Positions 2,509 through 31,797 of a stretch of DNA of 36,725 bases are shown here, one piece after another. This DNA comes from Oscillospiraceae bacterium (lineage in GTDB: Bacteria > Bacillota > Clostridia > Oscillospirales > Ruminococcaceae). The notes beneath the pieces are model-generated. The model was not told where the DNA came from. It worked only from the letters and a program-made list of their open reading frames with translations, and searched no databases. Numbering within the stretch: the first letter of the stretch is position 1; each line of letters starts with the position of its first letter. The translations under genes and the position numbers were made by a program. The stretch lies in assembly GCA_009782265.1 (NCBI GenBank), contig WRJM01000005.1, positions 1-36,725 on the forward strand, read 5' to 3'.

Positions 2509-2696
2509 CTAAATTAAAACTGACATCCGAAAGCCGCATTATTCTGCCGGACGGCACAGAAAAACCTTTTTCCTTGCTTTCGGAGGAAGAAAAACAAGAG
2601 CTGTTTACCCGTATGGAAAAGCGTTTAAGCGCAGATTTACGACCGGCGGTTTGCCGGTTATCACAATCCGGAATACGCTCCTCCGTACTGACTTAG
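2505..2696 (+). CDS. Small hypothetical protein overlapping the feoB stop (ATGA)
   Basis: 63 aa starting 'MTKLKLTSESRIILPDGTEKPFSLLSEEEKQELF'; translationally coupled; C-terminus may be frameshifted (see findings). Confidence 0.5.
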   Translation: MTKLKLTSESRIILPDGTEKPFSLLSEEEKQELFTRMEKRLSADLRPAVCRLSQSGIRSSVLT

Positions 2697-2780
2697 TATG
2701 TATCCTGCCAATTTCGGGTTTTTATTATGTATTCTGACAGGCATCTGTGTTCTTTTTTCAAAAATAAACATAAGCCGCAC

Positions 2781-3047
2781 CTATATCCTTTCTGACGGCC
2801 ACGCGCCGCAAAGCCAATCCCATTCGCCGTTACAGCCTGCGCCGCATTCGCGCAGAGGGTAACAACAGCTTTCAAACGCTTCAAAGCAAGCGCAGTATTG
2901 CTTGCACGCTTCCTTGAACATCGCCAGCGCGTCCGCGTCTTCGGGGTGTGTGTCCAAATAAAGTTTGAGGTCGTGTACAAAAAAATGCGCTTCGCATAAA
3001 CTGTCCATCAGCGCGGAACAGTTCGGCGGATAATTTTTATCGTTCAT
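2781..3047 (-). CDS. cotJB: Spore coat protein CotJB-like
   Basis: 88 aa; CotJB-like 'LKLYLDTHPEDADALAMFKE...YCACFEAFE...WDWLCGAWPSE'; start overlaps the upstream cotJA-like stop. Confidence 0.75.
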   Translation of the reverse strand: MNDKNYPPNCSALMDSLCEAHFFVHDLKLYLDTHPEDADALAMFKEACKQYCACFEAFESCCYPLRECGAGCNGEWDWLCGAWPSERI

Positions 3048-3240
3048 GCCGAATCCCCCTTGTATAATCGTGTGCCGGTATATTTAATTCGGGAAAAATC
3101 GTTCCCGCCGCCAGCGCGCGTTTAGGCGGATAAACCTTGCCTAAGTGCTGGGGCTGAACAAACGCATAACCGACCATCGGATACGATGAGAAAGAACCAT
3201 TGCCGCTTCTTGCGCTTCCCGGGTTTCGCATATACTCCAT
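3037..3240 (-). CDS. cotJA: Spore coat associated protein CotJA-like
   Basis: Start trimmed to MEYMRNPG with SD 'AAAGGAG'; CotJA-like 'GYAFVQPQHLGKVYPPKRALAAGTIFPELNIP'. Confidence 0.75.
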   Translation of the reverse strand: MEYMRNPGSARSGNGSFSSYPMVGYAFVQPQHLGKVYPPKRALAAGTIFPELNIPAHDYTRGIRHER

Positions 3241-3373
3241 GATTGTGCTCCTTTCTGAAAGAAATTTATAATATATTATGATAATTGCCCGCAAGCGGTG
3301 TCACATTTATGAAGAATTGCATATGCTGTAATACGACATAAATCGTCAAATATGAACAAGGGAGGAACATAAA

Positions 3374-3475
3374 ATGCGCTTTTTCCCGAATCGCCGCGGT
3401 TTTCCGCTATGGGTTGCAGGCGTCGGCTTCAGAAATTGCAGAAATAATTGCTGCGGACGCCGTTTCTGGTGGTAA
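3374..3475 (+). CDS. 33-aa Cys/Arg-rich small protein (hypothetical)
   Basis: Below ORF-track cut-off; strong SD 'GGGAGGAACATAAAATG'; MRFFPNRRGFPLWVAGVGFRNCRNNCCGRRFWW; followed directly by a terminator hairpin. Confidence 0.6.
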   Translation: MRFFPNRRGFPLWVAGVGFRNCRNNCCGRRFWW

Positions 3476-3481
3476 AAAACA

Positions 3482-3522
3482 AAAAAAACACACAGGTCTA
3501 ACCGGACTTGTGTGTTTTTTAT
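3482..3522 (+). terminator. Rho-independent terminator after the 33-aa ORF
   Basis: AAAACACACAGGTC..GACTTGTGTGTTTTTT stem followed by T-rich tract. Confidence 0.7.
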
Positions 3523-3671
3523 TAAAATTTTTTAAAATTTTTTAAATTTTTATTAAAAAACTATGGAATTTTATGTAATAATATGTTATTATTAAATATA
3601 TGGGTTAATTTGAAGGGCTAATTAATAGAGAAAAATGAAAATATCCGGAAAAGGGAAAGGAGGAGAAGCCA

Positions 3672-5135
3672 ATGAGCGAGAATAACCATCCGGTTTCGGC
3701 AGAAACGCACGACGAACACGAAGCGCATGCAAAACACGCGGCTGTAGACGGTGCGGTTGTCATTGACGTGTCGGATGATAAGCTTACTGCCTATCTCCAT
3801 ATAACCGAAGAAAAATTTGACGGCAACCCCGTGACCTACAAAGATATAACAAGCACGGTTGAAAGCCACGGAATCAATTATAAACCCGATTTGGATAAAG
3901 CAAAAGAGCTTATCGAGCATAAATCGTTCAATAAGAAAATCTACCTCTCCAGAGGCTTTTCAGCCGTAAACGGAGAGGACGGAACGATTGAATACTTTTT
4001 TGAAACCAGCAGTACCTTAGTCCCTAAAAAAGGGGAGCACGGCAATGTTGACTTTAAAGATTTGGGATTAGTCCGCAATATAACGGAAGGCGAGCTAATC
4101 GCAAAAATCACCATGCCGACCGAAGGCACGCCCGGAATGGATGTTTACGGGCAGGAGATTCCTCCCGCTCCCGGGAAAGAACCGAAATTCATTGTCGGGC
4201 AGGGAACAGAATTATTTAACCACGGAACTGAAATCAAAGCCGTAAGGGACGGAAACTTGGTTTGGGGGAAGGGCGGATTCACCGTTGAGGAAACCTTGGT
4301 TATTAAAGAAAGCGTAGACGTTTCAACGGGAAACATCGATTTTATAGGCAACGTCCTGATTAAAGGCAACGTGGCTGAAAACTTTATGGTTAAATCCAAA
4401 AAGAATGTTTCGGTAAACGGCTCTGTAACCAATGCAACCATCATCGCGGACGGCGATATAAATATCGGGCTGGGAAGCGTCAACTCCAATATCGTAGCAC
4501 AGGGGAATGTCAAATTAGGCTTCTGCGAAAGCTCGAAGGTTGAGTGTCAGGGCGATTTTTACAGCAAATCCGTTATTGCCGGAGAGGTATACTGCGGCGG
4601 CTCTTTTAATGCCACGCAGGACAGAGGTGTTGTATTCGGCGGCAAGCATACCGCGCTCGCCGGCTTCAACGCGAACATTATCGGTACGGAAAGCTATACT
4701 AAAACGCAGGTTACATTAGGCAACAGCGCGGTTTTAACCGAAGAAAGGCTTGAACTCTCCAATAAAATCAAAGACCTTGACGAGCGCACCAGAAAGCTTT
4801 TGCAGGTTGCGGAGGTTTTACAGGAACATAAAAAGAATTTCGGTTCGCTTTCCGCTGACCGCGAAGCAATGCTGACGACCGCTATCCGTTCAAGGTTTAC
4901 TTTCCAGAGGGAAGTTAAACAGCTCAACGAAAGAATTAAAGAAATCGACAAAGAACTTGAATTTGTCGGCGAGCAGTTTGTTGTGGTTCATAAGAACCTT
5001 TGGCCCGGCGTAACAGTACGTATCGGTACAGAACTGCTCATTGTAGACCGCAATATGCAGAAAGTAATGATAGGTAAGGATTCTGCGGGGCATCTTGCTT
5101 ACCTGCCCATCAGCTCGGCTAAAAGCAAATCCTGA
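3672..5135 (+). CDS. FapA / DUF342 family protein
   Basis: 487 aa; polymer-forming beta-helix-like 'GNIDFIGNVLIKGNVAENFMVKSKKNVSVNGSVTNATIIADGDINI', C-terminal coiled coil; SD AAAGGAGGAG. Confidence 0.85.
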   Translation: MSENNHPVSAETHDEHEAHAKHAAVDGAVVIDVSDDKLTAYLHITEEKFDGNPVTYKDITSTVESHGINYKPDLDKAKELIEHKSFNKKIYLSRGFSAVNGEDGTIEYFFETSSTLVPKKGEHGNVDFKDLGLVRNITEGELIAKITMPTEGTPGMDVYGQEIPPAPGKEPKFIVGQGTELFNHGTEIKAVRDGNLVWGKGGFTVEETLVIKESVDVSTGNIDFIGNVLIKGNVAENFMVKSKKNVSVNGSVTNATIIADGDINIGLGSVNSNIVAQGNVKLGFCESSKVECQGDFYSKSVIAGEVYCGGSFNATQDRGVVFGGKHTALAGFNANIIGTESYTKTQVTLGNSAVLTEERLELSNKIKDLDERTRKLLQVAEVLQEHKKNFGSLSADREAMLTTAIRSRFTFQREVKQLNERIKEIDKELEFVGEQFVVVHKNLWPGVTVRIGTELLIVDRNMQKVMIGKDSAGHLAYLPISSAKSKS

Positions 5136-5149
5136 GGTTAATTCGGTAT

Positions 5150-6484
5150 ATGAACGTTAAAACGCCCATTTGTGATTTTTTAACAGCGTATACCGGAAAA
5201 AAGCGGACGCGCTGTCATACGCCCGGTTCAAAAGGGCGTGTTTATAAACACGATATAACCGAAATAAACGGCGCGGACAGCCTTTATGAACCCTGTAGCT
5301 GTGCCGCTGACACAACTACCGGTATCATCGCCGAAAGCGAAAATATAGCCGCAAGGCTTTTCGGCGCGGCAAAAACCTTGTATTCCTGCTCAGGAAGCAC
5401 GCTTGCCGTCCAGACCATGCTGAGCCTGATTAAAACATCGGCAGAAGCAAACGGTAAGAACAGAATCGCCGCGTTCCGGTACGCGCACAGAAGCTTTATT
5501 TCGGCGGCGGCACTGTTAGGTTTTGACATTGACTGGATTTATCCGGAGGAATTTCTTTCGGCATGTTTAAAACCCGAAGCGGTTAAAGAGGCTGTAAGAC
5601 CCGACACCGCGGCGGTTTTTGTCAACAGCCTTGATTATTACGGCGGTATGTGCGGGATTCAAGAAATTTCAAGCGTCTGCAAGCAGGCGGATATACCGCT
5701 TCTCGTAGATAACGCCCACGGTGCGTACTTTATACTTACAGGCGGACACCCGATTACGCATGGCGCGTCCATGACCGCAGACAGCGCGCATAAAACGCTT
5801 CCGGTTATGACGGGCGCGGCTTATCTGCATATAAATGATACGCGGTTTACGGAAAACGCAAAATCCGCTATGGCGGTTTTTGGGACTTCAAGCCCGTCGT
5901 ATTTGATTTTAGAAAGCCTTGATACCTGCAATAAGCATATTGCGGAAGCCAAAGACAAGGTAAAACAAGCGGATTTCGCTTTCGCGCTTACCGAAGAATT
6001 AAAACAAAGTCTTAAAGCAAGCGGTTTTGCGTTAAAAGAAAGCGATTTGCTGAGAATCACCGTAAATGCGCGTGAATCAGGCTATACGGGCGTTGAATTC
6101 GCCGCAGAGTTGCGTCAAAACGGCGTTGAGCCGGAATATGCCGATGAAAATTACACGGTTTTGCTTTTTTCAACCGTTACAAACAAAAAAGAAATAACAG
6201 CAGTTAATAAGGCTTTTCAAAAAATAAAAATAAAAAAACCGCTCCCCCCCTTAATTTATCCGGTTATAAAGCCGAAAAGTAATATAAGTGCAAGAGAAGC
6301 ACTTTTTCATTCCAAGCATTACGATATTACGGAACTTAATACGGCGAAAGACAGAATTTGTGCGGAAGTTATCGCGCCCTGCCCCCCCGGAATTCCTTTG
6401 ATTATGCCGGGTGAGCTTATCGGAGCAGATGAAATCGAGCTTCTTAAATCTTTCAGAGTGAAAAGAATCAGGGTTATAAGGTAA
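5150..6484 (+). CDS. Orn/Lys/Arg decarboxylase family (PLP-dependent, fold type I)
   Basis: 444 aa; 'RCHTPGSKG', 'TLYSCSGSTLAVQTML', 'VDNAHGAYF', 'TADSAHKTLPVMTGAAYLH'. Confidence 0.87.
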   Translation: MNVKTPICDFLTAYTGKKRTRCHTPGSKGRVYKHDITEINGADSLYEPCSCAADTTTGIIAESENIAARLFGAAKTLYSCSGSTLAVQTMLSLIKTSAEANGKNRIAAFRYAHRSFISAAALLGFDIDWIYPEEFLSACLKPEAVKEAVRPDTAAVFVNSLDYYGGMCGIQEISSVCKQADIPLLVDNAHGAYFILTGGHPITHGASMTADSAHKTLPVMTGAAYLHINDTRFTENAKSAMAVFGTSSPSYLILESLDTCNKHIAEAKDKVKQADFAFALTEELKQSLKASGFALKESDLLRITVNARESGYTGVEFAAELRQNGVEPEYADENYTVLLFSTVTNKKEITAVNKAFQKIKIKKPLPPLIYPVIKPKSNISAREALFHSKHYDITELNTAKDRICAEVIAPCPPGIPLIMPGELIGADEIELLKSFRVKRIRVIR

Positions 6485-6494
6485 TTATAACCAT

Positions 6495-6523
6495 TTGAAA
6501 AATGAATCATAATATGTTATAAT
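6495..6523 (+). promoter_or_regulatory. Sigma-A-type promoter for BMP-like lipoprotein gene
   Basis: TTGAAA-N17-TATAAT. Confidence 0.7.
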
Positions 6524-6547
6524 AAGGTTAGCACGGAGGTTAAACTT

Positions 6548-7729
6548 ATGAAAATAAAAAAATTTTTAGCGTTGTTTTTGACGGGAATTTTACTTATATC
6601 GGGCTGCGGCGGCGGCGCAACAATAGACCCCGGTATCTTTATTAATGAAGGCGAAGTCAGCCCTTATCCGCTTGACATGAAAGTAGGTTTCATCTACAGC
6701 GGCTCGGTCGGGTCAGACCCGATGATTGCGACTTTTGAATCCTGCCGGTATCAGCTTGAGGTAACGCTGAAAAGCGTTAAAACCAGCTGTATGGAGAATG
6801 TGCTTTTACAGCAGTTTGAACAGGCGGTTGAAGCCTATATCGACAACGGCTACAACGTCATTGTCGCCGCTGACGCCAAATATAACTCTGCTGTTGTCAT
6901 ATCCGCGAAAAAACATCAGGATATAGCTTTTATCAGCTTCGGCGGGCATGATATTGCGCATAACCTTTCTTCCGTTCAGCCCCTGCTGTATCAGGCGGCG
7001 AATGTTTTAGGGTTCGCGGCGGCGTATAACACCGTCAGCAATAAAATAGGCTTAGTGATTGACCCGAATATGTACAACGCTTACGGAATCGCCAACGCTT
7101 TCGCGCTCGGAACAAGAGAGCTTCCGAACTCTCAGACAAACCTTTCCGTTAAATGGGCTTTATCCAATAATTTTGCCGATACAAAAAGAGCTGTGGACGA
7201 ATTTTACGCGCAGGGGTGCGATATTGTTTTTGTTTACCAGTACGAAGAATACGGGATTAAACGCTGTGAGGAACTTGGCATTAATGTTATGGCGTGTGCT
7301 TTTAATCTGCCGGAGATAGCACCGGAGCATTATTTAACCGGCATGTTTTTAAACCTTGACACATATTTAATCAACGAGGTGCGCAAGGTTCAGTACGGTA
7401 ATTTCGTTTTCGGAGAGCTTACCCGCGAAGGGTTGTTTTATCCGTCCGTGAGCATGGTACAGCTTAACGAAAACACGTGCAAGGAAGGCACAAAAGAAAT
7501 CATGGATAAGCTGATGAATCTTATTTATGAAGGGAAAACACCCATTTTCGGCGGCGAAGTTCGTGACCGTAACGGCGATGTCCGGATTGCGAAGGGCGAC
7601 CACTGGAAATCTCCTCAGGTTCTGCAATTAAGGGCATGGCTGACGAATTTAATTACTTCCGAGCAGAATATGTCTGCCCCGCTCACTGAAGACGATTTAA
7701 TTTATTCCGATTTAAAAATGAAAGATTAA
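6548..7729 (+). CDS. BMP-family-like substrate-binding lipoprotein
   Basis: 393 aa; lipobox 'LLISGCGGG'; 'KVGFIYSGSVGSDPMI', 'GYNVIVAADAKYNSAVVISAKKHQDIAFISFGG'; SD GGAGG. Confidence 0.75.
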   Translation: MKIKKFLALFLTGILLISGCGGGATIDPGIFINEGEVSPYPLDMKVGFIYSGSVGSDPMIATFESCRYQLEVTLKSVKTSCMENVLLQQFEQAVEAYIDNGYNVIVAADAKYNSAVVISAKKHQDIAFISFGGHDIAHNLSSVQPLLYQAANVLGFAAAYNTVSNKIGLVIDPNMYNAYGIANAFALGTRELPNSQTNLSVKWALSNNFADTKRAVDEFYAQGCDIVFVYQYEEYGIKRCEELGINVMACAFNLPEIAPEHYLTGMFLNLDTYLINEVRKVQYGNFVFGELTREGLFYPSVSMVQLNENTCKEGTKEIMDKLMNLIYEGKTPIFGGEVRDRNGDVRIAKGDHWKSPQVLQLRAWLTNLITSEQNMSAPLTEDDLIYSDLKMKD

Positions 7730-7752
7730 AAAGGATTCAATAAAATACGCCT

Positions 7753-8337
7753 ATGAACAACATCAAAGCCGAATTCACGGAAATATACAATGCAAACATA
7801 ACCCGTCCAGGCGCGGCACAGTTTTTGGAATTCCTGAACGCCGGCGATTTTTTCACCGCGCCCGCAAGCACGCGCTATCACGGCTCTTACGAAGGCGGTT
7901 TGGCTGTTCACAGCGTCAATGTCTACAAATGCCTTACCGATTATCTTGAGCGCGAGAGAACACGGGAAGTCTACAAAATGGAATATTCTGAAGAAAGCGT
8001 GGCTATAGTCGCGCTTTTACATGATGTGTGCAAAATTGACACCTATAAAAAAAGCACCCGTAACGTTAAAAATGAAGCAACCGGTGTTTGGGAAAAAGTC
8101 CCCTGTTATAACTTTGAGGATAACCTGCCTTACGGGCACGGTGAAAAGTCAGTTTACATGATTAGCGGGTTCATGCGCTTAACAAGGGAGGAAGCCATGG
8201 CAATCCGCTGGCATATGGGTTTTTCGGGAATTGAAGATAAAAATACAATCGGCAGTGCTTTGGAAAAATACCCGCTTGCGTTCGCGCTGACAGTCGCGGA
8301 TATGGAAGCGACGTATTTTTTGGAAGGAGAAAATTAA
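7753..8337 (+). CDS. HD domain-containing hydrolase
   Basis: 194 aa; 'YHGSYEGGLAVHSVNVYKCL...VAIVALLHDVCKIDTYKK' with 'GHGEKSV'. Confidence 0.85.
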   Translation: MNNIKAEFTEIYNANITRPGAAQFLEFLNAGDFFTAPASTRYHGSYEGGLAVHSVNVYKCLTDYLERERTREVYKMEYSEESVAIVALLHDVCKIDTYKKSTRNVKNEATGVWEKVPCYNFEDNLPYGHGEKSVYMISGFMRLTREEAMAIRWHMGFSGIEDKNTIGSALEKYPLAFALTVADMEATYFLEGEN

Positions 8338-9537
8338 ATGTCAAAAATTAACCAAAACTTTTTAAACCTGAAAGAAAACTACTTATTTATTGAAATAGGC
8401 AAGCGAATCCGCGGATACACCGACAAAAACCCTGATAAGTCCATAATCCGCATGGGGATTGGCGACGTAACACAGCCGCTTGCGCCTGTTGTCGTTGAAG
8501 CCATGAAAAAAGCCTGTGATGAAATGGGCGTGAAAGAAACTTTTAAAGGCTATGAAGATTCCGGACGGGGTTATTTGTTCCTGCGCGAAGCCGTCGCAGG
8601 ATATTACAAAGGCTTTGGTGTAACGATAGAACCTGATGAAATCTTCATCAGTGACGGCGCAAAGTCCGACAGCGGTAATATCACCGATATTTTCAGCGAA
8701 AATAACATCGCGCTTGTCAGCGACCCCGCTTATCCCGTGTATGTAGACAGCAGTATTATGAACGGCAAAAACGTGATTTACGCCGACGCTACCGAGCGAA
8801 CAGGGTTCGCACCCATTATCCCGACAAATACAAAGGCAGACATCATTTACTTATGTTCTCCCAATAATCCCACAGGCGCGGTTTTTACAAAAGAACAGAT
8901 TCAAAAATGGGTTGATTATGCTATTTTTAATAAAGCCGTGATTATTTATGACGCGGCTTATGAAGCGTTTATTTCTGATGAATCCTTGCCGCGGAGCATT
9001 TTCTGTATAGAAAGTGCAAGAAAGTGCGCGATTGAAATCGCTTCTTTATCCAAAACCGCCGGCTTCACGGGAACACGCTGCGGGTATACAATTATTCCGA
9101 AAGAGCTTGAATTTTATGACGAAAACGGGAATTCTTATAACGTCTTAAAAATCTGGGCAAGGCGGCAGGGCAGTAAATTCAACGGCGTGCCTTATATCAT
9201 TCAGCGCGGCGCGGAAGCTGTATTCACGCCGGAGGGCTTGAAGCAAACCCGCGAAACAATCGGTTATTACATGCAAAACGCTGAAATTATGTCTGACACT
9301 TTTGACGAGCTGGGAATTAAATATACAGGCGGGAAGAATTCACCGTACATTTGGTTTAAATGCAATATGCCGAGCTGGGAATTTTTCGATAAATTACTTA
9401 CCGAAAAGCAAATTGTCGGGACGCCGGGCGCGGGCTTCGGGAAAAACGGGGACGGCTGGTTTCGCCTGACGGCTTTCGGGACACGGGAGAATACGATAGA
9501 AGCGATGAGAAGGGTTAAAGAATTGCTGAAAAAATAA
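8338..9537 (+). CDS. dapL: LL-diaminopimelate aminotransferase
   Basis: 399 aa; 'IRMGIGDVTQPL', 'ISDGAKSDSGNI', 'YLCSPNNPTGAVF', 'SLSKTAGFTGTRCGYT'. Confidence 0.95.
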   Translation: MSKINQNFLNLKENYLFIEIGKRIRGYTDKNPDKSIIRMGIGDVTQPLAPVVVEAMKKACDEMGVKETFKGYEDSGRGYLFLREAVAGYYKGFGVTIEPDEIFISDGAKSDSGNITDIFSENNIALVSDPAYPVYVDSSIMNGKNVIYADATERTGFAPIIPTNTKADIIYLCSPNNPTGAVFTKEQIQKWVDYAIFNKAVIIYDAAYEAFISDESLPRSIFCIESARKCAIEIASLSKTAGFTGTRCGYTIIPKELEFYDENGNSYNVLKIWARRQGSKFNGVPYIIQRGAEAVFTPEGLKQTRETIGYYMQNAEIMSDTFDELGIKYTGGKNSPYIWFKCNMPSWEFFDKLLTEKQIVGTPGAGFGKNGDGWFRLTAFGTRENTIEAMRRVKELLKK

Positions 9538-9540
9538 AAC

Positions 9541-9565
9541 GTAGGGGCGGATTCCATATCCGCCC
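9541..9565. repeat. GTAGGGGCG-type intergenic palindrome
   Basis: GTAGGGGCGGATTCCATATCCGCCC; GGGCGGAT/ATCCGCCC stem; related to 10937..11016. Confidence 0.6.
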
Positions 9566-9582
9566 TTAAAAAATGATTTGAA

Positions 9583-10251
9583 TTATTTCCTTTTGCGGGT
9601 AATGATTGCCGCGCCTGCTGATACAAAAGCCGGAATGACAGCAAATATTACGCCGGAATTAGGGTTATGTCCTACGCAAGGCGTGCAATCCGCACAATTG
9701 CAATTTTCTTCGCAATCAAGGCATCCGCCGCATTTATCGCAATGTTCGCATATACATGTATTCCCTTCCGGTTCGTCACCTATGGTTGCTATATCCCCTT
9801 GACCGTCCGAAATAACTGTTTCATAAAGTTCAAGGATTTCATCGCTTGAGTAAAAGATTTCAATGCCTTTAAATTCATAGGCGTTTTGTCTGTCTACACT
9901 TGTGAAAGAGATAGAAAGGTCGCCGTCAGCGTCTGCGATTGTAAACACAAAATAAGCAAGAATGTCACCGGAATCAACCCCAACACCCGCGAAAGAGAGA
10001 AGCCCGGAGTCATCGTTGTAAACCCAAAGACTAATTTCGCCGGCACGGCTGTTGCTTTCAAAGAAATCGAAAACAAGTCCGTCGCCGTAATCCACTTCAA
10101 TTAACCCCTCAAGGCTACCGTCTTCGTCCGCGATAAGGAATACTTTTACTGTATCGCCGTCTGCTTCTGTTTCAGTGGTAATCGCGGAAGTGCTGATTGT
10201 AAATATAGCCGCTAAAGCTACGATTACAAAAATTGATAAAATTTTCTTCAT
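9583..10251 (-). CDS. Secreted Cys-rich surface protein with NPxSG-type sortase-like C-terminus
   Basis: 222 aa; signal peptide; 'CICEHCDKCGGCLDCEENCNCADCTPC'; 'GHNPNSGVIFAVIPAFVSAGAAIITRKRK' (sorting-like motif, TM, basic tail). Confidence 0.7.
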   Translation of the reverse strand: MKKILSIFVIVALAAIFTISTSAITTETEADGDTVKVFLIADEDGSLEGLIEVDYGDGLVFDFFESNSRAGEISLWVYNDDSGLLSFAGVGVDSGDILAYFVFTIADADGDLSISFTSVDRQNAYEFKGIEIFYSSDEILELYETVISDGQGDIATIGDEPEGNTCICEHCDKCGGCLDCEENCNCADCTPCVGHNPNSGVIFAVIPAFVSAGAAIITRKRK

Positions 10252-10281
10252 TGTTTAATACCTCTTTATGTTTTAATATTA

Positions 10282-10914
10282 TTACCGGCAATGATAAATC
10301 GGGTTATTTTCTTTTTCATGCCGAATCGTGGTACTGCCGCCGTGCCCGGGGTAAACAACGGTTTCATCAGGCAGAGTAAACAGTTTGTTGATAATCGAAT
10401 CCGCAAGTTTTTCCTGACTTCCGGTCGGAAAATCCGTTCTGCCGAAGCTTTCGTTAAAAAGCGTATCACCGCAGAAAAGCACATTTTCGTTTTCGATATA
10501 ATAGCAAACGCTTCCTGATGTGTGCCCGGGCGTTGCGATTGTTTTGACGAAAAACCCTGCAAGCTCGGTAATTTCGCCGTCTTTCAGCCATTTATCGGTT
10601 TTTACCGTGAGCGGCGTTCTGCCGAGCTTGGCAGAACCGTTGAGCGCGGGGTCGGCTAACAGCTTTTCTTCTTCCGCGCCCGCGTAAACGGGAAGCTTCA
10701 GCAGTTCTTTTAAATCCCCAACCGCGCCGACATGGTCAAAATGCCCGTGCGTCAGCAGAATAGCAACAGGCTTCACTTGCAGTTCCTTGCATTTTTTAAT
10801 TATATAATGAGCGTCCTCCTCAGGGTCAATAATGAATGTTTCATTTATATCTTCATTAATAATAAAGTAGCTGTTGGTTTGAACAGGTCCTAATACGTTT
10901 ATGATGATTTTCAA
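10282..10914 (-). CDS. MBL-fold metallo-hydrolase (glyoxalase II-like)
   Basis: 210 aa; 'LLTHGHFDHVGAV', 'TPGHTSGSVCYY', 'VYPGHGGSTTI'. Confidence 0.92.
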   Translation of the reverse strand: MKIIINVLGPVQTNSYFIINEDINETFIIDPEEDAHYIIKKCKELQVKPVAILLTHGHFDHVGAVGDLKELLKLPVYAGAEEEKLLADPALNGSAKLGRTPLTVKTDKWLKDGEITELAGFFVKTIATPGHTSGSVCYYIENENVLFCGDTLFNESFGRTDFPTGSQEKLADSIINKLFTLPDETVVYPGHGGSTTIRHEKENNPIYHCR

Positions 10915-24026: not shown

Positions 24027-24055
24027 TTGACAATTACATTTATTTATAGTATAAT
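24027..24055 (+). promoter_or_regulatory. Consensus promoter for the pilin-like operon
   Basis: TTGACA-N17-TATAAT. Confidence 0.85.
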
Positions 24056-24151
24056 GATTATAAGTATCAGTTGTTGAACCGCATATGCGGGATTTTGACA
24101 GCTGTTAAAACTATCAGATTTGCCGTATTATGCCTTCGGAGGGGTTTGACT

Positions 24152-27100
24152 ATGAAAAAATTTCATCATTTACATAGTGTAAGGAGAAATAAGCAAGCCG
24201 GTTTTACAATGGTTGAAGTGCTTGTTGTTATTGCGATTATCGGTATTCTTGCCGCCATTATTATGCCGATTATGACGGGTATGCTGAACCGTAGCAGACA
24301 GACCAGTCGCGAAAATACGGCAAGAACCCTGTATGTATCGGTGCAGAACCAGCTTACTAAAAGCATGCTGGAAAAAAATATCATGTCAACAGTGACGGGA
24401 TTTTTCTATGAACCTGACCCGTCGAACCCCGGTGAGTTTTTAAAAAATGCTGACGGCACTTATCAATTGAACACTCATAATGTTGTAAAAACCGAATTAG
24501 ACAATAACGGCGGAACTTTTCCTGCGGACGAGGTGCTTAACGGAAACGAGGATAATGTCCGGTACATAAGCAAGCCTGCCGATTACAGACCCGAAAACGA
24601 CCCCGACCCCAACGAAAACGAAACCAAGGCTTTATACAGAATCCTGCTGAACGGTTTTATTGAAAGAGAAGTATTGGACTGCGCGATTCTGATAGAGTTT
24701 AATGTCCGCACCGGATTGGTTATGTCCATCTTTTACGGAAATGCTGACCAAACAGAGTTTATATACGACGACATTGCTGATAACGACATCAATAACGTCA
24801 CCGGCTTGCGCGGCATGGATTATTTAGATACAGCCATTGCCCGCAGGCAGGGTTATTACGGCGCGGAAACCACCGGTGTTCCGCTTCCGCCTTTAAGCAG
24901 GGACGAAAATATTGTTAATATTTATGACGGAGCGGTTTATCCGCTGTTTACCTCTGCCGGCGTTAAGACAAACGTGCTTTATGCTGAGTTTTTATTATTA
25001 GAAGAAGCCGTCATGCCTTCTTATGAATTTAAATTGGTTGAAGCTGACACGGGAATTAATATTCCGGGTACAACACAAATCGTTGACCTCAGTACTGTAC
25101 CGACGAGCTTTACATTAAACGCGTCCGGACCTTCTATTTATCAGGATATTCTTAACCCGATTGAATTAGGCGGAGAAGATGTAAGCGATATATTCAACAG
25201 ATATATCTGGATTATTGATATAGCCGAGGGCGATATGTCCGCCGGAGAGGCTTTTGTGCACAGTATAGGCGATAAATACGGGATTACATGGGCGCAGAAT
25301 GTCCGTGTTTATTCGCTGAGGGACGGAAGCGATGAGGGCAATACTTCTCATACAGAAGCCAACACGCTCTTTTCCCGCGAGTTAGCTACCGATGAGTATG
25401 AAATTATATCGGCAAGGCACTTGAACAATATCCGTTTCCTGCCTGCCGACACATACAGGCAGAGAAAAGACATTGATATGAAACCGGCGTTCCATGAAAT
25501 TACTAATTTCGCACCCATAGAAAATTTCTGCGGAAGCTATTCCGGCATGAAAGGCTTTGCTGACCAGTATGTAATTGAAAACCTTGCAATAAGCGTAACA
25601 TCCGGCGACGGCGGGCTGTTCTCGGATAACAACGGTGTGATTCAGGGGCTTACCGTTTCCGGCGCGGATATAAAAGGTACAAACTGCGGCGTGATTGCCG
25701 CGGCGAATTCAGGTACAATCAGTAAAGTGAACGTCATAGATTCCAAAATCAGCGGACAAAGCGCGAGCGGGAACGCCGGCGGGATTACCGGCATAAATCA
25801 GCCCGGCGCGGAAATCAAGGACGTCTGCGTTATAGAGTTGAGTATATTAAACATGGCTGACAGCGCGGGCGGTATTGCCGGCAGAAACTACGGCGTCATT
25901 TCGTGCGCCGGCGTTGAAGAGTCCGAAATCAAATGCGTAGGTATAAATATAGGCGGTATCGCAGGCTACAACGAAGCCGGTGCGGAAATTAAGGACGTTT
26001 ATTTCCTCTCAACAAATTCTGTGGACTTAGCTTCAATCCCGATTGCGTCCAACGGCGGCGGCATTGTCGGGCAAAACAACGGCTTGATTACGGTTGCGTT
26101 TTACTTAGCGCCCGCGCCTTTTGACCCGGTTTCAGCGAATTATTATCCGATTGTGCGCAGCGGCGACCCCGGCGGGATTTTCGACGGTGCAAAATATACC
26201 GGCTGTTTCTTCTTAGCCGGCTATAAATATTCCACAACTTCGGGAATTTCATGGCCCACAACAAACCTCTATTACAACTGCTCTCCCGATGAATTCCATA
26301 TTTTCAACGGAAACACGGAAAACAACTGCACGTCCATGACTACAGATTTCATGGATAAAGAATGGATAAACTATGTTTACGGGCGCGAGCCTATTCCAAT
26401 CGGCGATGTATGTCCCGACTGCGGTAAAGACCCCTTAGACGAAAATGACCCCTGCGACTGTATCTACGTCAATCTTTCAAACTGGATACATGAGGGCAGT
26501 TATCCTTATCCTGTTTTAAGAACTTTAAAAACACCTGTAAAATGGGCAGAAGCCGCCAGCTCAAGAGACCAGAAAGAGAACGAAAATTTCGGAAAAGAGC
26601 TTAGCGAAGGGAATAAGGTAAAATCCGTAGATTTTAAAAACGGTGCTTTTAATCTGCCTTTCCAATACCCTACCGCTCCGATTTACCGTGATTTTTATAC
26701 GAACACAGATAACGGAAGCGGCAACTGGCTGGTTCAAAAACCCACGCCTTACCCGAGCGTTGACCCCGGCGTAACCGGTGCGGCATGGATGGGCGGAAGA
26801 ACTTTCTGGGTATATTTCAATCAGGATTATATTCAAGGCTGGCAAACCAGACCGGTTGACGGTACTTATACCTGTGTCCGTCCCAGCGGTGTGACTCGAT
26901 GCGCATACTATCCGACCGGCACAATGCCCAGCAATCATACCCATAACTCGTTTGAAAACAAATTCGGGGACAACACGAGGTCTAACGCCCATAACAGCAC
27001 TGACCACGGAATCGGTCAGTTTACATGGGAAGCAATCGAATATCAGCGTCCGAGCAATACCGCCGCTGACAGCCGTGCCCGTATTAATTATAACGGCAAA

Positions 27101-29716
27101 TATAATACAGGGGATACGGCATACGTTGAGCTTAACGCGGAGCTTGAAAGCACGATGTATCAGGTTTGTACAACCAGTCCGGGGCAAAGCTTCTATTACT
27201 CTTTCCACCACCTCACAAGAACCAACGGCACAAATAACCCCGGAGAGAAAATGAGCTTTTATCTCTCCCTCATCCCTACAGACCAAAATGAGCTGGTTAA
27301 AAACCAAGAGCAGCTTGCCGCACGCGACGCCGAGCTTGTGCTTATCAGACCCTGCTGGTCTCCCCGTTCACAGCCGGGCTCTAACCCCTCCGTAACGAAC
27401 GCCGCAAGCTACGCCCAAAACTCCCGTTTTTATAACCCTATCGCGGCAAATACCGTTGCATACGGAAATACTTATGTAGGAAGCCTTTATAAATATTGGA
27501 ACGATAAACCGGAATTTAATCAACTTGAAGGTCAGCCGCTTTCCGCGCAATGCAACTGGGGTACTAACCCTTACATCTATGATGTATGGATAGGGACTGC
27601 CGGAGCAGGAGACACCGGCACAAGAAGCGGTTTCGGCGTTACTTTCTGGTCAAATACGAATATTACGGCATTAAATTCAACCTCACACACCGGATTTGCT
27701 ACTCTTGACGCACTTTATCTTACCGCTCCGCAGGCAAAAACAAATACTTTCGCTTATTGGACGATTAATTACGGCTGGAAGAATTATTACGGTCAATATA
27801 CCGCTCCCACCAACCCCGGCGCGGAATATATCACCGTTGAGGGAACTTCAGTAACTACAAGAACCGAATTTGCTTTCCAGTCAAATACAAACAACCCTAC
27901 ACAGGGTAACTACTTAGCGGGTATAGACTTTAAAGCGCCTTCGTTCTTAACCGTCGGTAAATCCTTTAAGGATGAAAACGGAGATACTGCTTCCTTTGCG
28001 GAAGGCGGCGATTCTATAACCGTTGAACTGACCGTAAAAAACCTCGGTGAAGTGCCTGTTGATAATATTGTTATCACCGATAGGCTTGACCCCTACCATG
28101 AATATTTTGATTATATAGGGAATGTTACTGTAAAAAAAGGTAATTCAACTATACCCTTTACCTTAGGACCTGCGCCCGCCGACGTAAACTTATGGACTTT
28201 AACAGTTGACCTCAAAACTTATGACGAAGAAGGTGACGTAGATGAGAATGAAACGCTGGCTAAAGGCGAAACCATTACCGTTACATTTGAAATTAAAATT
28301 CGCGAGACCTGCCGGAGTGATTACAGTTTACCCACGCTGTTCTTCTATATTAAAAATCAGGGGAAGGTAACTTTTAAAGAAACAGAGTTCCGCAATCAGT
28401 ACCGCGACACAACTGAAGCTCAGCTTTATAACTATTCAAAAGTTGAAAAATTAAGCATATCCCCTGTAGAACTCGTTAAAACAGTGAGCCCGAGCATCAA
28501 CGGTCCGTTTGAGGTTACGCTTACGATTAAAAATGCATCGACAAGCGGCGAAGTCAGAAAAGGCTTTTTCACCGATAACATTCAACCCGGGTTCAGAATA
28601 TCGCAGGTAAAGCGCGACGGGGTATTGCTCGACAGCAGTAGTTTTTCGCGGGACGGCGATTCGCGTATTTCCGTTAAAAATATAGAACTTAATTCCGGAG
28701 AGACCACCACGATTACGTATAGGCTGGAATATTCCGGTCCGGGTTACGGAGCTTCAAATGCTTCCTATGATAAATATCCCGATTTCCGGTTTATCTATAC
28801 CGGCTCGGGTATTACGGAGGATGCAAAAGACTCATTCCCGCCGCAAGCGGTAGGATTTACCGTTAAAGTTCCCGCCGTCCCCGATGATTTCTATATAGAC
28901 GGTAATGATATGTTAAACATTACGCGTAAATCTAATTTCCACGCCGGTAACGCATTAGTTGCCGCCGGTTACACTTTGGAGTCCGAAGTAATGCTGTGCG
29001 ACCCTGCCGGAAATGTTCTTCCGTTCGGCGACAACGGTAAAGACGTAAACGGGCACTATATTGCGGATTATCCGGATTTCTTCGCACGTTTGAATAAAGC
29101 TACCAACTTGGTAGAGTTTGAGCCGAAAACCGCAACCGATTCCACTTTCTTACTGCACTATAGAATAAAACTGACCGCAATTTCAGAAAAAACCACAGAA
29201 GACGACGATTATAATATTGTGCTTAATTCTCCTGTGGCAACGGTAACAATCCACTACGTAACCGACACGCTGGTGTACTACGAGCAGTATGACGACGGAG
29301 AATTCAGTTACGGCTTTTACGCAGGACCGGGCGTTTCTGTTCCGAGAGTTTTACAGAACGAAGAAATCATAGAGAGCGGGTATGCTGTTCTCAGCGCAAG
29401 CGAAATTTCCTTCCCGGGTTACAGTTCGCCTTATGTGAACGGCTTATATGTGAATATTGTCAGCAAAAGCGACGAGCCGGCAGATAATTTAAGCTTAGTC
29501 TCTGTAATGTTTAAAGGCGACCTTATCGGAAAATACCACCCGAACTTTGCTAAAGCGCTGTATTCGCCAACTGCGGACAATGCAGGAAATACCTTTATTA
29601 TCCGTTCATTCCAGCAATTATCGAATATTTTGAAGTTAGAAGAAGGCGGATTAGACACGACTACGCTAACCTTTACACCTGAAAACGGCATGGACCCCTT
29701 TATGCCGCCGCCATAA
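24152..29716 (+). CDS. Giant prepilin-like surface protein (GLUG-like repeats, DUF11-like domains)
   Basis: ~1854 aa; prepilin motif 'KQAGFTMVEVLVVIAIIGILAAIIMPIM'; SD GGAGGGG; GLUG-like repeats ~25.5-26.0 kb; DUF11-like 'ITVELTVKNLGEVPVDNIVITDRLDP'. Confidence 0.9.
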   Translation: MKKFHHLHSVRRNKQAGFTMVEVLVVIAIIGILAAIIMPIMTGMLNRSRQTSRENTARTLYVSVQNQLTKSMLEKNIMSTVTGFFYEPDPSNPGEFLKNADGTYQLNTHNVVKTELDNNGGTFPADEVLNGNEDNVRYISKPADYRPENDPDPNENETKALYRILLNGFIEREVLDCAILIEFNVRTGLVMSIFYGNADQTEFIYDDIADNDINNVTGLRGMDYLDTAIARRQGYYGAETTGVPLPPLSRDENIVNIYDGAVYPLFTSAGVKTNVLYAEFLLLEEAVMPSYEFKLVEADTGINIPGTTQIVDLSTVPTSFTLNASGPSIYQDILNPIELGGEDVSDIFNRYIWIIDIAEGDMSAGEAFVHSIGDKYGITWAQNVRVYSLRDGSDEGNTSHTEANTLFSRELATDEYEIISARHLNNIRFLPADTYRQRKDIDMKPAFHEITNFAPIENFCGSYSGMKGFADQYVIENLAISVTSGDGGLFSDNNGVIQGLTVSGADIKGTNCGVIAAANSGTISKVNVIDSKISGQSASGNAGGITGINQPGAEIKDVCVIELSILNMADSAGGIAGRNYGVISCAGVEESEIKCVGINIGGIAGYNEAGAEIKDVYFLSTNSVDLASIPIASNGGGIVGQNNGLITVAFYLAPAPFDPVSANYYPIVRSGDPGGIFDGAKYTGCFFLAGYKYSTTSGISWPTTNLYYNCSPDEFHIFNGNTENNCTSMTTDFMDKEWINYVYGREPIPIGDVCPDCGKDPLDENDPCDCIYVNLSNWIHEGSYPYPVLRTLKTPVKWAEAASSRDQKENENFGKELSEGNKVKSVDFKNGAFNLPFQYPTAPIYRDFYTNTDNGSGNWLVQKPTPYPSVDPGVTGAAWMGGRTFWVYFNQDYIQGWQTRPVDGTYTCVRPSGVTRCAYYPTGTMPSNHTHNSFENKFGDNTRSNAHNSTDHGIGQFTWEAIEYQRPSNTAADSRARINYNGKYNTGDTAYVELNAELESTMYQVCTTSPGQSFYYSFHHLTRTNGTNNPGEKMSFYLSLIPTDQNELVKNQEQLAARDAELVLIRPCWSPRSQPGSNPSVTNAASYAQNSRFYNPIAANTVAYGNTYVGSLYKYWNDKPEFNQLEGQPLSAQCNWGTNPYIYDVWIGTAGAGDTGTRSGFGVTFWSNTNITALNSTSHTGFATLDALYLTAPQAKTNTFAYWTINYGWKNYYGQYTAPTNPGAEYITVEGTSVTTRTEFAFQSNTNNPTQGNYLAGIDFKAPSFLTVGKSFKDENGDTASFAEGGDSITVELTVKNLGEVPVDNIVITDRLDPYHEYFDYIGNVTVKKGNSTIPFTLGPAPADVNLWTLTVDLKTYDEEGDVDENETLAKGETITVTFEIKIRETCRSDYSLPTLFFYIKNQGKVTFKETEFRNQYRDTTEAQLYNYSKVEKLSISPVELVKTVSPSINGPFEVTLTIKNASTSGEVRKGFFTDNIQPGFRISQVKRDGVLLDSSSFSRDGDSRISVKNIELNSGETTTITYRLEYSGPGYGASNASYDKYPDFRFIYTGSGITEDAKDSFPPQAVGFTVKVPAVPDDFYIDGNDMLNITRKSNFHAGNALVAAGYTLESEVMLCDPAGNVLPFGDNGKDVNGHYIADYPDFFARLNKATNLVEFEPKTATDSTFLLHYRIKLTAISEKTTEDDDYNIVLNSPVATVTIHYVTDTLVYYEQYDDGEFSYGFYAGPGVSVPRVLQNEEIIESGYAVLSASEISFPGYSSPYVNGLYVNIVSKSDEPADNLSLVSVMFKGDLIGKYHPNFAKALYSPTADNAGNTFIIRSFQQLSNILKLEEGGLDTTTLTFTPENGMDPFMPPP

Positions 29717-29724
29717 AAATTGTT

Positions 29725-29761
29725 TTCGTGTTTCTCCTGCCGCAGGCGGGGGAAACACGAA
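29725..29761. repeat. Hairpin related to the PEPCK leader hairpin
   Basis: TTCGTGTTTCTCCTGCCGCAGGCGGGGGAAACACGAA near-perfect inverted repeat. Confidence 0.8.
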
Positions 29762-29791
29762 GTAATGAATTAATAAGGAGGGCAGGAATAA

Positions 29792-30763
29792 GTGAACAAA
29801 CGAAAAAGAACCGGAAGAGCCGCACGGCTTTTAGACAATAAAGGCGAATCGTTAATCTATATATTCTCAATCATGCTTTTTCTTATGATTATCTGTTCGT
29901 CAGTGGTGACAGCCGCTATCGCCAACCACGGTTATCAGGTTAAGCAGTACGAATACAATCAAGCGATTATATTGGATGAATCCATCCATAAGAACATCAT
30001 GTACAGCCTGCAAATCGACCCGTCTGATTCTTCTCTGCTGTCAAGACAGCTTGCTGAAGCATTATATGAAATCAGAGGCGGAAATCCCTTTTCCCCTGCC
30101 CGTTTAGGAACGATTGAACTTAATTTAAGCATGGTTTCCGGTACGCCCATTGATTTATACAATGACGGGAGCATTACGCTTCAAAGCGTAGAGCTTTCCT
30201 TCCCTGAGCAGCATGTTATTATCAATCCTTCATCGCCCGCACAGTACCAATTGAAACAGGTGTTAGACCCCCGTGTTGTTTGCAATAATTGCGACGGGCA
30301 AATATTTCCTGTCCCCGCAGACCCTCTTGATGCATGTAATTGCGGAAGTCCGATTCCCATCCCTGACAACGAAAATATGAAAAAAGTATTGGAGTTTATT
30401 ACTCCCAACGGTGAAAGAAGACCTAAAACAATAAATATTATCTCGTCAATGATTGTTACTGTTGTAATTGATGCAAACGGCAAAACGATTATATCAAGAG
30501 CCTATTATCAATATTCCGGCGGAAAGCTTTCAGACGACCCGATTAATTATTACGAGCGTTGTCATAACGATGAAGATATTTTATCCCCGACACACGGACA
30601 ATGCATTGTTTTAGATGAACATTCCTGTGATGTTTGCAGAGGGGGTACAGATTGCGGTATTTCATGGCATTACATTGATTGCATTGATGAAAATGACGAT
30701 AATATGGTATTTACTCATTTCGGAAGATGGGAGTTGATTAGATATGAAACGATTGAAGCATAG
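29792..30763 (+). CDS. Pseudopilin-like protein (no Glu5; GspK/PilX-like by analogy)
   Basis: 323 aa, GTG start with SD AAGGAGG; 'LLDNKGESLIYIFSIMLFLMIICSSVVTAAIANHGYQVKQYEYNQ'; Cys-rich motifs. Confidence 0.75.
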   Translation: MNKRKRTGRAARLLDNKGESLIYIFSIMLFLMIICSSVVTAAIANHGYQVKQYEYNQAIILDESIHKNIMYSLQIDPSDSSLLSRQLAEALYEIRGGNPFSPARLGTIELNLSMVSGTPIDLYNDGSITLQSVELSFPEQHVIINPSSPAQYQLKQVLDPRVVCNNCDGQIFPVPADPLDACNCGSPIPIPDNENMKKVLEFITPNGERRPKTINIISSMIVTVVIDANGKTIISRAYYQYSGGKLSDDPINYYERCHNDEDILSPTHGQCIVLDEHSCDVCRGGTDCGISWHYIDCIDENDDNMVFTHFGRWELIRYETIEA

Positions 30764-31100
30764 ACACCGCCTGATTTCTAACAAGGGCGAGCTTATCGCG
30801 GAAACCATGGTCAGCTTTATGATTTTGGCTATGCTGTTTGCGGCTGTCCTGATGTGTTTAAATTTCGCGCTGAGAGTAACAGGGCGGTCTATACGCGATT
30901 CAAGGGAATTGCAGGAAGATGTTGTAAACCCTACTTTATTAACGCAATACGGCGGCGATGAAGAAGATGTTATCATCTTTTTTGCTTATGACGACCCTGT
31001 GGGAGCGGGCATAAAGAATGCTTCGCATACAACTTATTTCTACGAAAACGACGACGGCGACTACATCGTAAGGGGTTTTTCTCCTGACTTTGAGTTTTGA
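30744..31100 (+). CDS. Pseudopilin-like minor subunit
   Basis: 118 aa; 'LISNKGELIAETMVSFMILAMLFAAVLMCLNFAL'; overlaps preceding gene. Confidence 0.75.
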   Translation: MKRLKHRHRLISNKGELIAETMVSFMILAMLFAAVLMCLNFALRVTGRSIRDSRELQEDVVNPTLLTQYGGDEEDVIIFFAYDDPVGAGIKNASHTTYFYENDDGDYIVRGFSPDFEF

Positions 31101-31119
31101 GTAAGGAATGGTTATATTT

Positions 31120-31647
31120 ATGAGAAAGTTATCAAATTTAAAAAGTAAAAAAGGCATGACGTTAGTCGAGCTTTTAACGGGCATTGCCATGCTTTCTTTC
31201 TTGATGATTATGATTACATCGATTTTAATGCCGACGTCCAGAGTGCAATCCAGAGTTATTGACCTTGCGGAGATGAACACGCTGCTTGACAATGTTTCCA
31301 ACCCTATTATAAAGGATTTATCAAGTGCAACAAGCGTAGTGCCCGGGTCAATGATATTCGGAGCAGATGATTTAGTCAGGATTCCTATTGGCAATACTTG
31401 GGTTGAGTATACGGTTGACCCGGCAAGCGGTATATTAATGAGAGAAACGAACAGGGACGGGGGCGTTTCCCGCTTTGTGCTTTCGCCGGCTTATTACAGA
31501 AATAAAAGCATCACTTTCGCCGTTACGGACGCCGGTTTAACTTCCGGAACAGGGTTTATTTTAACGGTTATTATTTTATCCGATACCGGAGAGGAATTGG
31601 CAGACAGGAGTTATGCGATTAAACCGCTTGCGGTTAATTCTTATTGA
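31120..31647 (+). CDS. Pseudopilin-like minor subunit with canonical prepilin motif
   Basis: 'SKKGMTLVELLTGIAMLSFLMIMITSILMPTSRVQSR'. Confidence 0.82.
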   Translation: MRKLSNLKSKKGMTLVELLTGIAMLSFLMIMITSILMPTSRVQSRVIDLAEMNTLLDNVSNPIIKDLSSATSVVPGSMIFGADDLVRIPIGNTWVEYTVDPASGILMRETNRDGGVSRFVLSPAYYRNKSITFAVTDAGLTSGTGFILTVIILSDTGEELADRSYAIKPLAVNSY

Positions 31648-31672
31648 TTGTTAAATAATTAAATATAGTTAA

Positions 31673-31760
31673 TTAACTTAGAAAATGCCCAATAAACAGG
31701 CATGAAAAGCTTTGATATATGGGTTTTTATGCCTGTTTATTGGTGCAATTTTCAAGTTAA
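31673..31760. repeat. Long imperfect inverted repeat (~36-nt arms)
   Basis: TTAACTTAGAAAATGCCCAATAAACAGGCATGAAAA ... TTTTATGCCTGTTTATTGGTGCAATTTTCAAGTTAA. Confidence 0.8.
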
Positions 31761-31767
31761 TTTACTA

Positions 31768-31797
31768 TAAAACGCTGATATATTTATCAGCGTTTTT
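31768..31797. terminator. Rho-independent terminator after the pilin-like operon
   Basis: AAAACGCTGATA-TATT-TATCAGCGTTTTTA. Confidence 0.85.

Follow-up and report, generated by a model that had tools for sequence, protein, structure and literature searches.

The DNA considered here, called the window, is a stretch of 36,725 nucleotides from an Oscillospiraceae bacterium (WRJM01000005.1). It is contig C5 of a metagenome-assembled genome (MAG) of 1.84 Mb in 155 contigs, 88.5% complete. Four consecutive genes on its forward strand form the subject of this report. The first is an open reading frame (ORF) of 1,854 codons, which starts at an ATG at 24152 behind a good ribosome-binding site (GGAGGGG) and ends at 29716; its product is referred to as the giant. 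An earlier note, made from the sequence alone, described a consensus promoter, a giant ORF with a type III signal, three further prepilin-like ORFs, and a closing terminator. All of these stand: the promoter, of the sigma-70 type, matches at 12 of 12 positions; the giant bears the motif KQAG|FTMVE; the three smaller ORFs follow in order, with motifs conserved in homologues; and a 12-bp stem with a U tract closes the operon (Table 1). The operon encodes four predicted prepilins, of which the giant and the products of genes 3 and 4 contain glutamate 5 (Glu5) and the product of gene 2 does not. Below, G000 denotes the window's own genome; the other G codes and the L codes denote relatives and their loci.

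Table 1. Features of the operon, followed by the related loci for which positions are given
Feature	Position	Strand	Evidence
Promoter-like site, TTGACA-17-TATAAT, 12/12 match	24027..24055	+	consensus match
Gene 1, giant modular prepilin, 1,854 amino acids (aa), 204 kDa	24152..29716	+	ORF, homologues
Class III leader, aa 1-17 (cleavage KQAG|FTMVE), and pilin α1 helix, aa 18-84	24152..24403	+	N_methyl
Conserved region, aa 85-420 (ISKP..., EYNxxTGxVxSIFYG)	24404..25411	+	conserved columns in alignment A2, low-confidence strands
GLUG-type β-helix, aa 421-660	25412..26131	+	AlphaFold2 (AF2), Foldseek, Pfam Glug in homologues
NGDF...GWxxRP...ELN...LYQ module (NGDF/ELN), aa 826-1262	26627..27937	+	conserved in alignment A3
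DUF11 domain, aa 1263-1425	27938..28426	+	Pfam, TIGR01451
Second immunoglobulin (Ig)-type domain, weakly DUF11-like, aa 1426-1562	28427..28837	+	hhalign
C-terminal tail, aa 1705-1854	29264..29713	+	alignment A1
Hairpin between genes 1 and 2, 18-bp stem, 3-nt loop, no U tract	29724..29762	+	z -5.6
Gene 2, K-like minor prepilin, 323 aa, NKG|ESLIY, no Glu5	29792..30763	+	alignment A4
Gene 3, I-like minor prepilin, 118 aa, NKG|ELIAE	30744..31100	+	alignment A5
Gene 4, J-like minor prepilin, 175 aa from ATG 31120, KKG|MTLVE	31120..31647	+	alignment A6
Intrinsic terminator, 12-bp stem and U tract	31769..31796	+	hairpin/U-tract scan
Large minor pilins in giant-less congeners	L142 (G006) 891-10398; L143 (G003) 556-4278		
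Homologues with hydrophobic and basic tails	L050 432-10298; L064 4595-13174; L065 6125-15085; L066 6382-14880; L063 2880-13097		

The giant prepilin

The gene 1 product starts MKKFHHLHSVRRNKQAG|FTMVEVLVVIAIIGILAA. Its N-terminus matches both Pfam N_methyl (E 1.2e-8, above the cut-off) and NCBIfam IV_pilin_GFxxxE (TIGR02532; 28.4 bits against a cut-off of 16.3). Residues F18 and E22 are invariant in alignments A1 and A2, and residues 15-84 are 44% identical to the genome's own 218-aa pilin, encoded on contig C100. The AF2 model of residues 1-828 (mean predicted local distance difference test score, pLDDT, 63) places the pilin helix at 20-84. The conserved region that follows, residues 85-420, is probably the pilin β-sheet together with an extra β domain; some strands are modelled at 85-250, with pLDDT mostly below 60.

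Next comes a β-helix, modelled with pLDDT mostly 80-96 over residues 430-620 and falling towards 660. Foldseek matches it to the GLUG β-helix of IgA1 proteases (3n6z, E 7e-7; 7uvk, E 2e-5). The GLUG-like repeats of the earlier note are borne out by this fold and by four occurrences of GG[IV]xGxN, against 0.03 expected from shuffles; the Pfam Glug family (PF07581) stays below its cut-off in the giant itself and passes it in four homologues (L063, L065, L047, L052). Because the giant has no HExxH motif, it shares only the scaffold of the IgA1 proteases, and a protease function was rejected on that ground. GLUG modules like those of the giant are present in further surface-type proteins of very large size, at G000:C8 30944-31405 and on G022:C17 (L079). 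Those ORFs, of 2,597 and 4,401 aa, have no prepilin match, and their GLUG modules suggest module shuffling within one genome.

The region at 26.7-27.9 kb had been singled out as aromatic-rich. Its content of F, W, and Y is 15%, not above the best window of the shuffled protein (p=0.13), so the compositional signal was rejected; the region survives as a conserved module, NGDF/ELN. This module and the DUF11 domain behind it recur in a 994-aa signal-peptide protein from another family (G202), encoded in a sortase/FctA cluster. One guess is that the module is a carbohydrate-binding jelly roll resembling DUF642.

At least two DUF11-like domains had been proposed. One exceeds the Pfam cut-off (PF01345, 25.2 against 24.6 bits, residues 1284-1356) and also that of TIGR01451 (25.3 against 24 bits). 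The second, at 1426-1562, has no Pfam match above cut-off and resembles the first weakly (hhalign probability 41, P 2.7e-4). A search of Protein Data Bank (PDB) sequences with a profile of the giant's C-terminal part returned no match. The tail looks like the beginning of one more GLUG module (IIRSFQQLSNI), cut short here and complete in homologue P0008 of G019. Since the module is truncated in one giant and complete in another, the family, judged from its sequences, gains and loses modules.

The three small prepilins

Genes 2 and 3 have no match in the domain libraries. Their products are classed as putative prepilins on the strength of a motif that 13 homologues of gene 2 and 9 of gene 3 have kept. 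Glu5 is absent from all 13 gene 2 homologues (A4) and invariant among those of genes 3 (A5) and 4 (A6). Gene 4, which has an alternative in-frame ATG at 31108, is borderline for N_methyl in the library search (20.7 against 21.2 bits) and above the cut-off in a six-frame search of the genome. That search found only four N_methyl prepilins in the window's genome; two ordinary ones lie elsewhere, on contigs C100 and C27.

Homologous giants and their hosts

Full-length giants occur in five of 60 relatives: four congeners (G012, G019, G022, and G026) and one member of another family (G040). All five keep the four-gene set and its order. A locus search of GTDB genomes with the single giant protein found none; a genome scan with a six-row alignment of giants yielded ten loci, five of them new, with giants of up to 3,300 aa and the four-gene order again kept in L043, L047, L050, and L052. 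An order-level search added giants of 2,832-3,405 aa in G080, G113, G127, and G203, along with a fragment in G243; matches to the modules alone (G083, G202, G283) were set aside as not prepilins.

The giants at 15 loci span 1,659-3,405 aa, and one more is cut by a contig end. Each of the 15 with a readable N-terminus retains Glu5; cleavage is predicted after Gly in 13 and after Ala in two, and Phe1 is present in 14. The earlier note had made its proposal depend on conservation of this motif, and conserved it is.

All ten loci of the GTDB scan belong, by their record titles, to Oscillospiraceae MAGs. Sample codes (PMC7024585) assign eight of the ten to gut samples of the termites Termes hospes, Embiratermes neotenicus, or Labiotermes labralis; for two Pal332 MAGs the host is not traceable. 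Going by its nearest relatives, the window's bacterium, an uncultured one, also appears to come from a termite gut. Among the papers searched, none ties giant pilins to termite gut Oscillospiraceae.

Two observations on the homologues may be added. First, a 109-aa ORF at G026:C75:4611-4919 closely matches the giant's first 106 residues and is possibly a truncated second copy. Second, several large homologues (L050, L064, L065, L066, L063, L047, L052) end in a short hydrophobic stretch and a basic tail, resembling wall-sorting tails and absent from the window's giant. The tail is preceded by a Cys-rich repeat region in L050 and L064, and by an LPDAG-like motif in L065.

Pilus machinery and its linkage to the giants

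As the earlier note observed, the window's contig has no pilB, pilC, or pilD; the note supposed that assembly is supplied elsewhere, and the genome search agrees. Contig C14 carries pilC, pilM, a pilN/O-like gene, pilD (on the opposite strand), and pilB. Contig C2 carries a gene corresponding, in place and likeness, to a pilT found next to the giant in G012; the G012 copy was confirmed as PilT by NCBIfam (442 against 319 bits). The genome also contains a second cluster resembling a type IV filament system (L012, G000:C24, 6676-12156): a PilT-family ATPase; four small pilin-like ORFs, one of them DUF4860; and a PilC-like protein.

Seven relatives have the giant or a partner gene inside or beside the type IV pilus (T4P) operon. 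The clearest arrangement is a single operon in G040: pilB-pilA-pilD-pilC-pilM-pilO-giant-gene 2-gene 3-gene 4. The cassette adjoins pilM/pilO in L047, L050, L052, and G080 (L066), and pilB/pilT in G127 (L065); in G012, pilT is directly upstream of the giant. G203 splits the set between two contigs: one bears the giant, and on the other the T4P operon opens with genes 2 and 3. Because of this separation, the co-occurrence of giant and pilus genes is not mere adjacency.

Gene 2 is found in exactly the giant-bearing genomes: 6 of the 60 relatives and 7 of 396 genomes of the order, and no copy in what remains of a class-wide sample of 388 genomes. Giant-bearing loci supplied the gene 2 profile; G203 and G243, which the profile did not include, were recovered all the same, and these counts leave aside more distant K-like proteins in other genomes.

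A probable replacement of the usual minor pilins

Two faint gene 2 matches in giant-less congeners led to a reading of their pil operons, first in G021 and then in 20 more congeners. The order in G021 is pilC-pilM-pilO-K-I-J-pilD-pilB-pilT. The K protein (886 aa, KKG|AVLFA) lacks Glu5, and I and J carry GFTLVE. This K-I-J block sits between pilO and pilD in all 17 informative giant-less congeners (two of them truncated upstream of K). The same interval is empty in all three informative giant-bearing genomes, measuring 185 nt in G000, 46 nt in G022, and 60 nt in G012; G019 and G010 are not informative, being cut there by contig ends. PilB is present in 24 of the 24 congeners searched, and in the PilB tree the four giant-bearing congeners that it contains form one clade (support 100/100).

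The simplest reading of these operons is that the giant clade lost the K-I-J block and that the four-gene cassette took over its role. The cassette would then be the minor-pilin set of a T4P, not an addition to such a set.

Giant-less congeners themselves carry large minor pilins in the pil operon: K-like proteins of 720-1,252 aa (L142, L143) and, in G006, a 1,436-aa J-like protein containing Cys-rich stretches. A tendency to bulky tip subunits seems to run through the genus.

Interpretation

The reading favoured here, and considered likely, is that the operon encodes the minor-pilin (tip or priming) complex of a type IVa pilus, with the giant as a modular pilin displaying a multi-domain adhesin. 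The earlier note had proposed a modular surface adhesin on the tip of a pilus or pseudopilus, and the parts of that proposal fare differently. For display of the giant on a T4P, within a minor-pilin complex, synteny, co-occurrence, and the apparent replacement of the minor pilins give good support. The giant probably carries a long adhesive fibre; an adhesin function is supported by the kinship of its modules, namely the IgA1-protease-like GLUG β-helix and the module shared with the adhesin-like protein of the sortase cluster. A position at the tip is suggested by analogy. That the ligand is plant fibre is a guess from habitat.

The proposed mechanism follows the PilA/B/C model of Streptococcus sanguinis (PMC9934059) and tip-located four-pilin complexes (PMC12153270). 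PilD would cleave the four prepilins after Gly or Ala. The products of genes 2 (K-like), 3 (I-like), and 4 (J-like) would stand in for the minor pilins of the congeners' pil operons, and the Glu5-bearing giant of about 200 kDa would join their complex through its pilin helix, its modules being exported ahead of that helix. The K/I/J-like proteins and the giant would together prime a filament whose shaft is formed by the C100-type pilin. The GLUG β-helix and the NGDF/ELN and DUF11/Ig-like modules would form an exposed adhesive fibre at the tip or close to it. Presumably, PilB, PilC, PilM, and PilN/O would extend this pilus and PilT would retract it.

Several points weigh against the favoured reading. 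The likeness of genes 2, 3, and 4 to K, I, and J is drawn from position, order, and Glu5 pattern, and profile searches of the PDB gave weak matches for all three, none decisive for K, I, or J. The replacement would be one event in one clade, so the three empty intervals are not independent. The MAG is incomplete and may lack a second minor-pilin set that the cell has; countering this, pilO and pilD lie on one uninterrupted stretch in G000, G022, and G012. AF2 gives no confident fold for residues 815-1854 (pLDDT 41). Finally, the hydrophobic and basic tails of some homologues might mean retention in the wall or membrane.

That last point bears on a different view of the giant: a surface protein that uses its prepilin helix only as a membrane anchor, outside any filament, with the small prepilins as an accessory complex. 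The tails would suit such a protein, as would its extreme size (up to 3,405 aa) and the unlinked giant of G203. It is nonetheless unlikely, given retention of both Glu5 and the cleavage residue in 15 of 15 giants; the exact co-occurrence of the giant with the K-like gene; the location of most loci within or beside T4P genes; and the presence of the cassette just where the standard minor pilins are missing.

The resemblance of the K-I-J set to GspI/J/K, and the high scores that PilB and PilC also obtain with the GspE and GspF models, could instead point to a pseudopilus of the type II secretion system (T2SS) kind, secreting enzymes, with the giant as a secretion component rather than an adhesin. 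This is very improbable: PilT is present and is linked to the giant in G012; PilM and PilN/O are of the T4P type; and homologues adjoin pilM, pilO, and pilT. To our knowledge, pseudopilins with long adhesin-like chains have not been described, which also counts against a pseudopilus.

An enzymatic giant, with a β-helix directed at polysaccharide of plant or microbial origin or, as in the IgA1 proteases, at proteins, is likewise very improbable, since the top Foldseek matches to IgA1 proteases fall on a non-catalytic GLUG β-helix, HExxH is missing, the far weaker glycosidase and lyase matches have E >0.01 and probability <=0.4, and the giant contains no catalytic Pfam family.

A broader proposal can be put forward tentatively. 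A lineage that, as far as traced, lives in termite guts may have swapped the standard tip complex for one built round a module-shuffling fibre of 180-370 kDa. The result would be part type IV pilus and part fibrillar adhesin, retractable and adapted to particles in the gut, lignocellulose or humus for example. Were the favoured reading true, a T4P would be primed by, and would carry, a subunit 10-20 times the size of a normal pilin, a test of the load that the assembly platform can handle. Moreover, a tip complex commonly regarded as an unchanging core would be swappable as a cassette. The termite-gut origin of all traced named carriers would suggest a concrete route of hindgut attachment for Oscillospiraceae.

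Expression signals

When the 421-nt intergenic region was dinucleotide-shuffled 5,000 times, the perfect promoter sequence arose in 2 of the shuffles. About 0.03 are expected per window from shuffles, and a window scan found another on the minus strand at 21200-21172, near 21.2 kb. Genes 2 and 3 are probably translationally coupled because their frames overlap. The position of the hairpin between genes 1 and 2 is not conserved among the homologous loci examined; this structure may set differing levels of giant and minor pilins, or may be a mobile palindrome. The four genes are presumed to form the single transcription unit of the earlier note; the strong hairpin, which has no U tract, would lie within it.

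Between gene 4 and the terminator lies a palindromic element of about 106 bp (31664-31769) resembling a miniature inverted-repeat transposable element, with ends TATAGTTAATTAACT...AGTTAATTTACTATA. About 21 more full copies, 92-98% identical, are present across the genome.

Comparison with known systems

PilA, PilB, and PilC of S. sanguinis form a modular-pilin tip complex in which one member lacks Glu5 (PMC8179133, PMC9934059). Like PilB and PilC, the giant fuses a small N-terminal pilin module to large functional modules in a monoderm T4P, and shares its operon with other minor pilins, one without Glu5. PilB and PilC are about 450-490 aa, with one vWA or Ig-plus-lectin module (PMC8179133, PMC9934059), whereas the giant has 1,854 aa (homologues up to 3,405) and combines a GLUG β-helix, NGDF/ELN, and DUF11.

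A four-minor-pilin operon whose K-like member lacks Glu5 also characterises the HIJK complex of T4P and T2SS and ComGD-F-E-G of the Com pilus (PMC9934059, PMC12153270). Here, in contrast, a giant modular pilin takes the H position, and K, I, and J are likened by position, order, and Glu5 pattern. In diderm T4P, PilC/PilY1 is likewise a large adhesin presented by the minor-pilin complex; however, PilY1 is a non-pilin with a C-terminal β-propeller, and the giant is a prepilin with no match to such a domain.

The adhesin-like protein of the sortase-pilus cluster (G202, L068) shares with the giant the NGDF/ELN module followed by DUF11 (E 3.7e-15). It differs in having a signal peptide, a C-terminal anchor, and a sortase/FctA cluster, and no pilin helix. 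Among Oscillospirales, type IV pilin-like proteins have been linked to plant fibre: CbpC of Ruminococcus albus and Pil3 of R. flavefaciens 007 (PMC3672088). These are small pilins, Pil3 being 14 kDa (PMC3672088). The cellulose connection that the earlier note raised through CbpC gains no support, since nothing in the analysis connects the giant with that pilin.

A 2021 InterPro survey counted >1,200 modular pilins, the many-domain extreme reaching 860 residues (PMC8179133). The giant shares one defining trait of the class, a pilin module joined to domains that are not peculiar to T4P (DUF11 and the GLUG β-helix). The giants are far larger than the characterised pilins of the cited studies, and a normal pilin is about 10 times smaller than the 1,854-aa giant. 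Prediction of the PilFind type would miss them because of its upper limit of 350 aa (PMC3244431). Modular pilins as such are already known; what looks new is a family of this size (1,659-3,405 aa), the fixed four-gene cassette to which it belongs, and the exchange of the standard minor pilins for this set.

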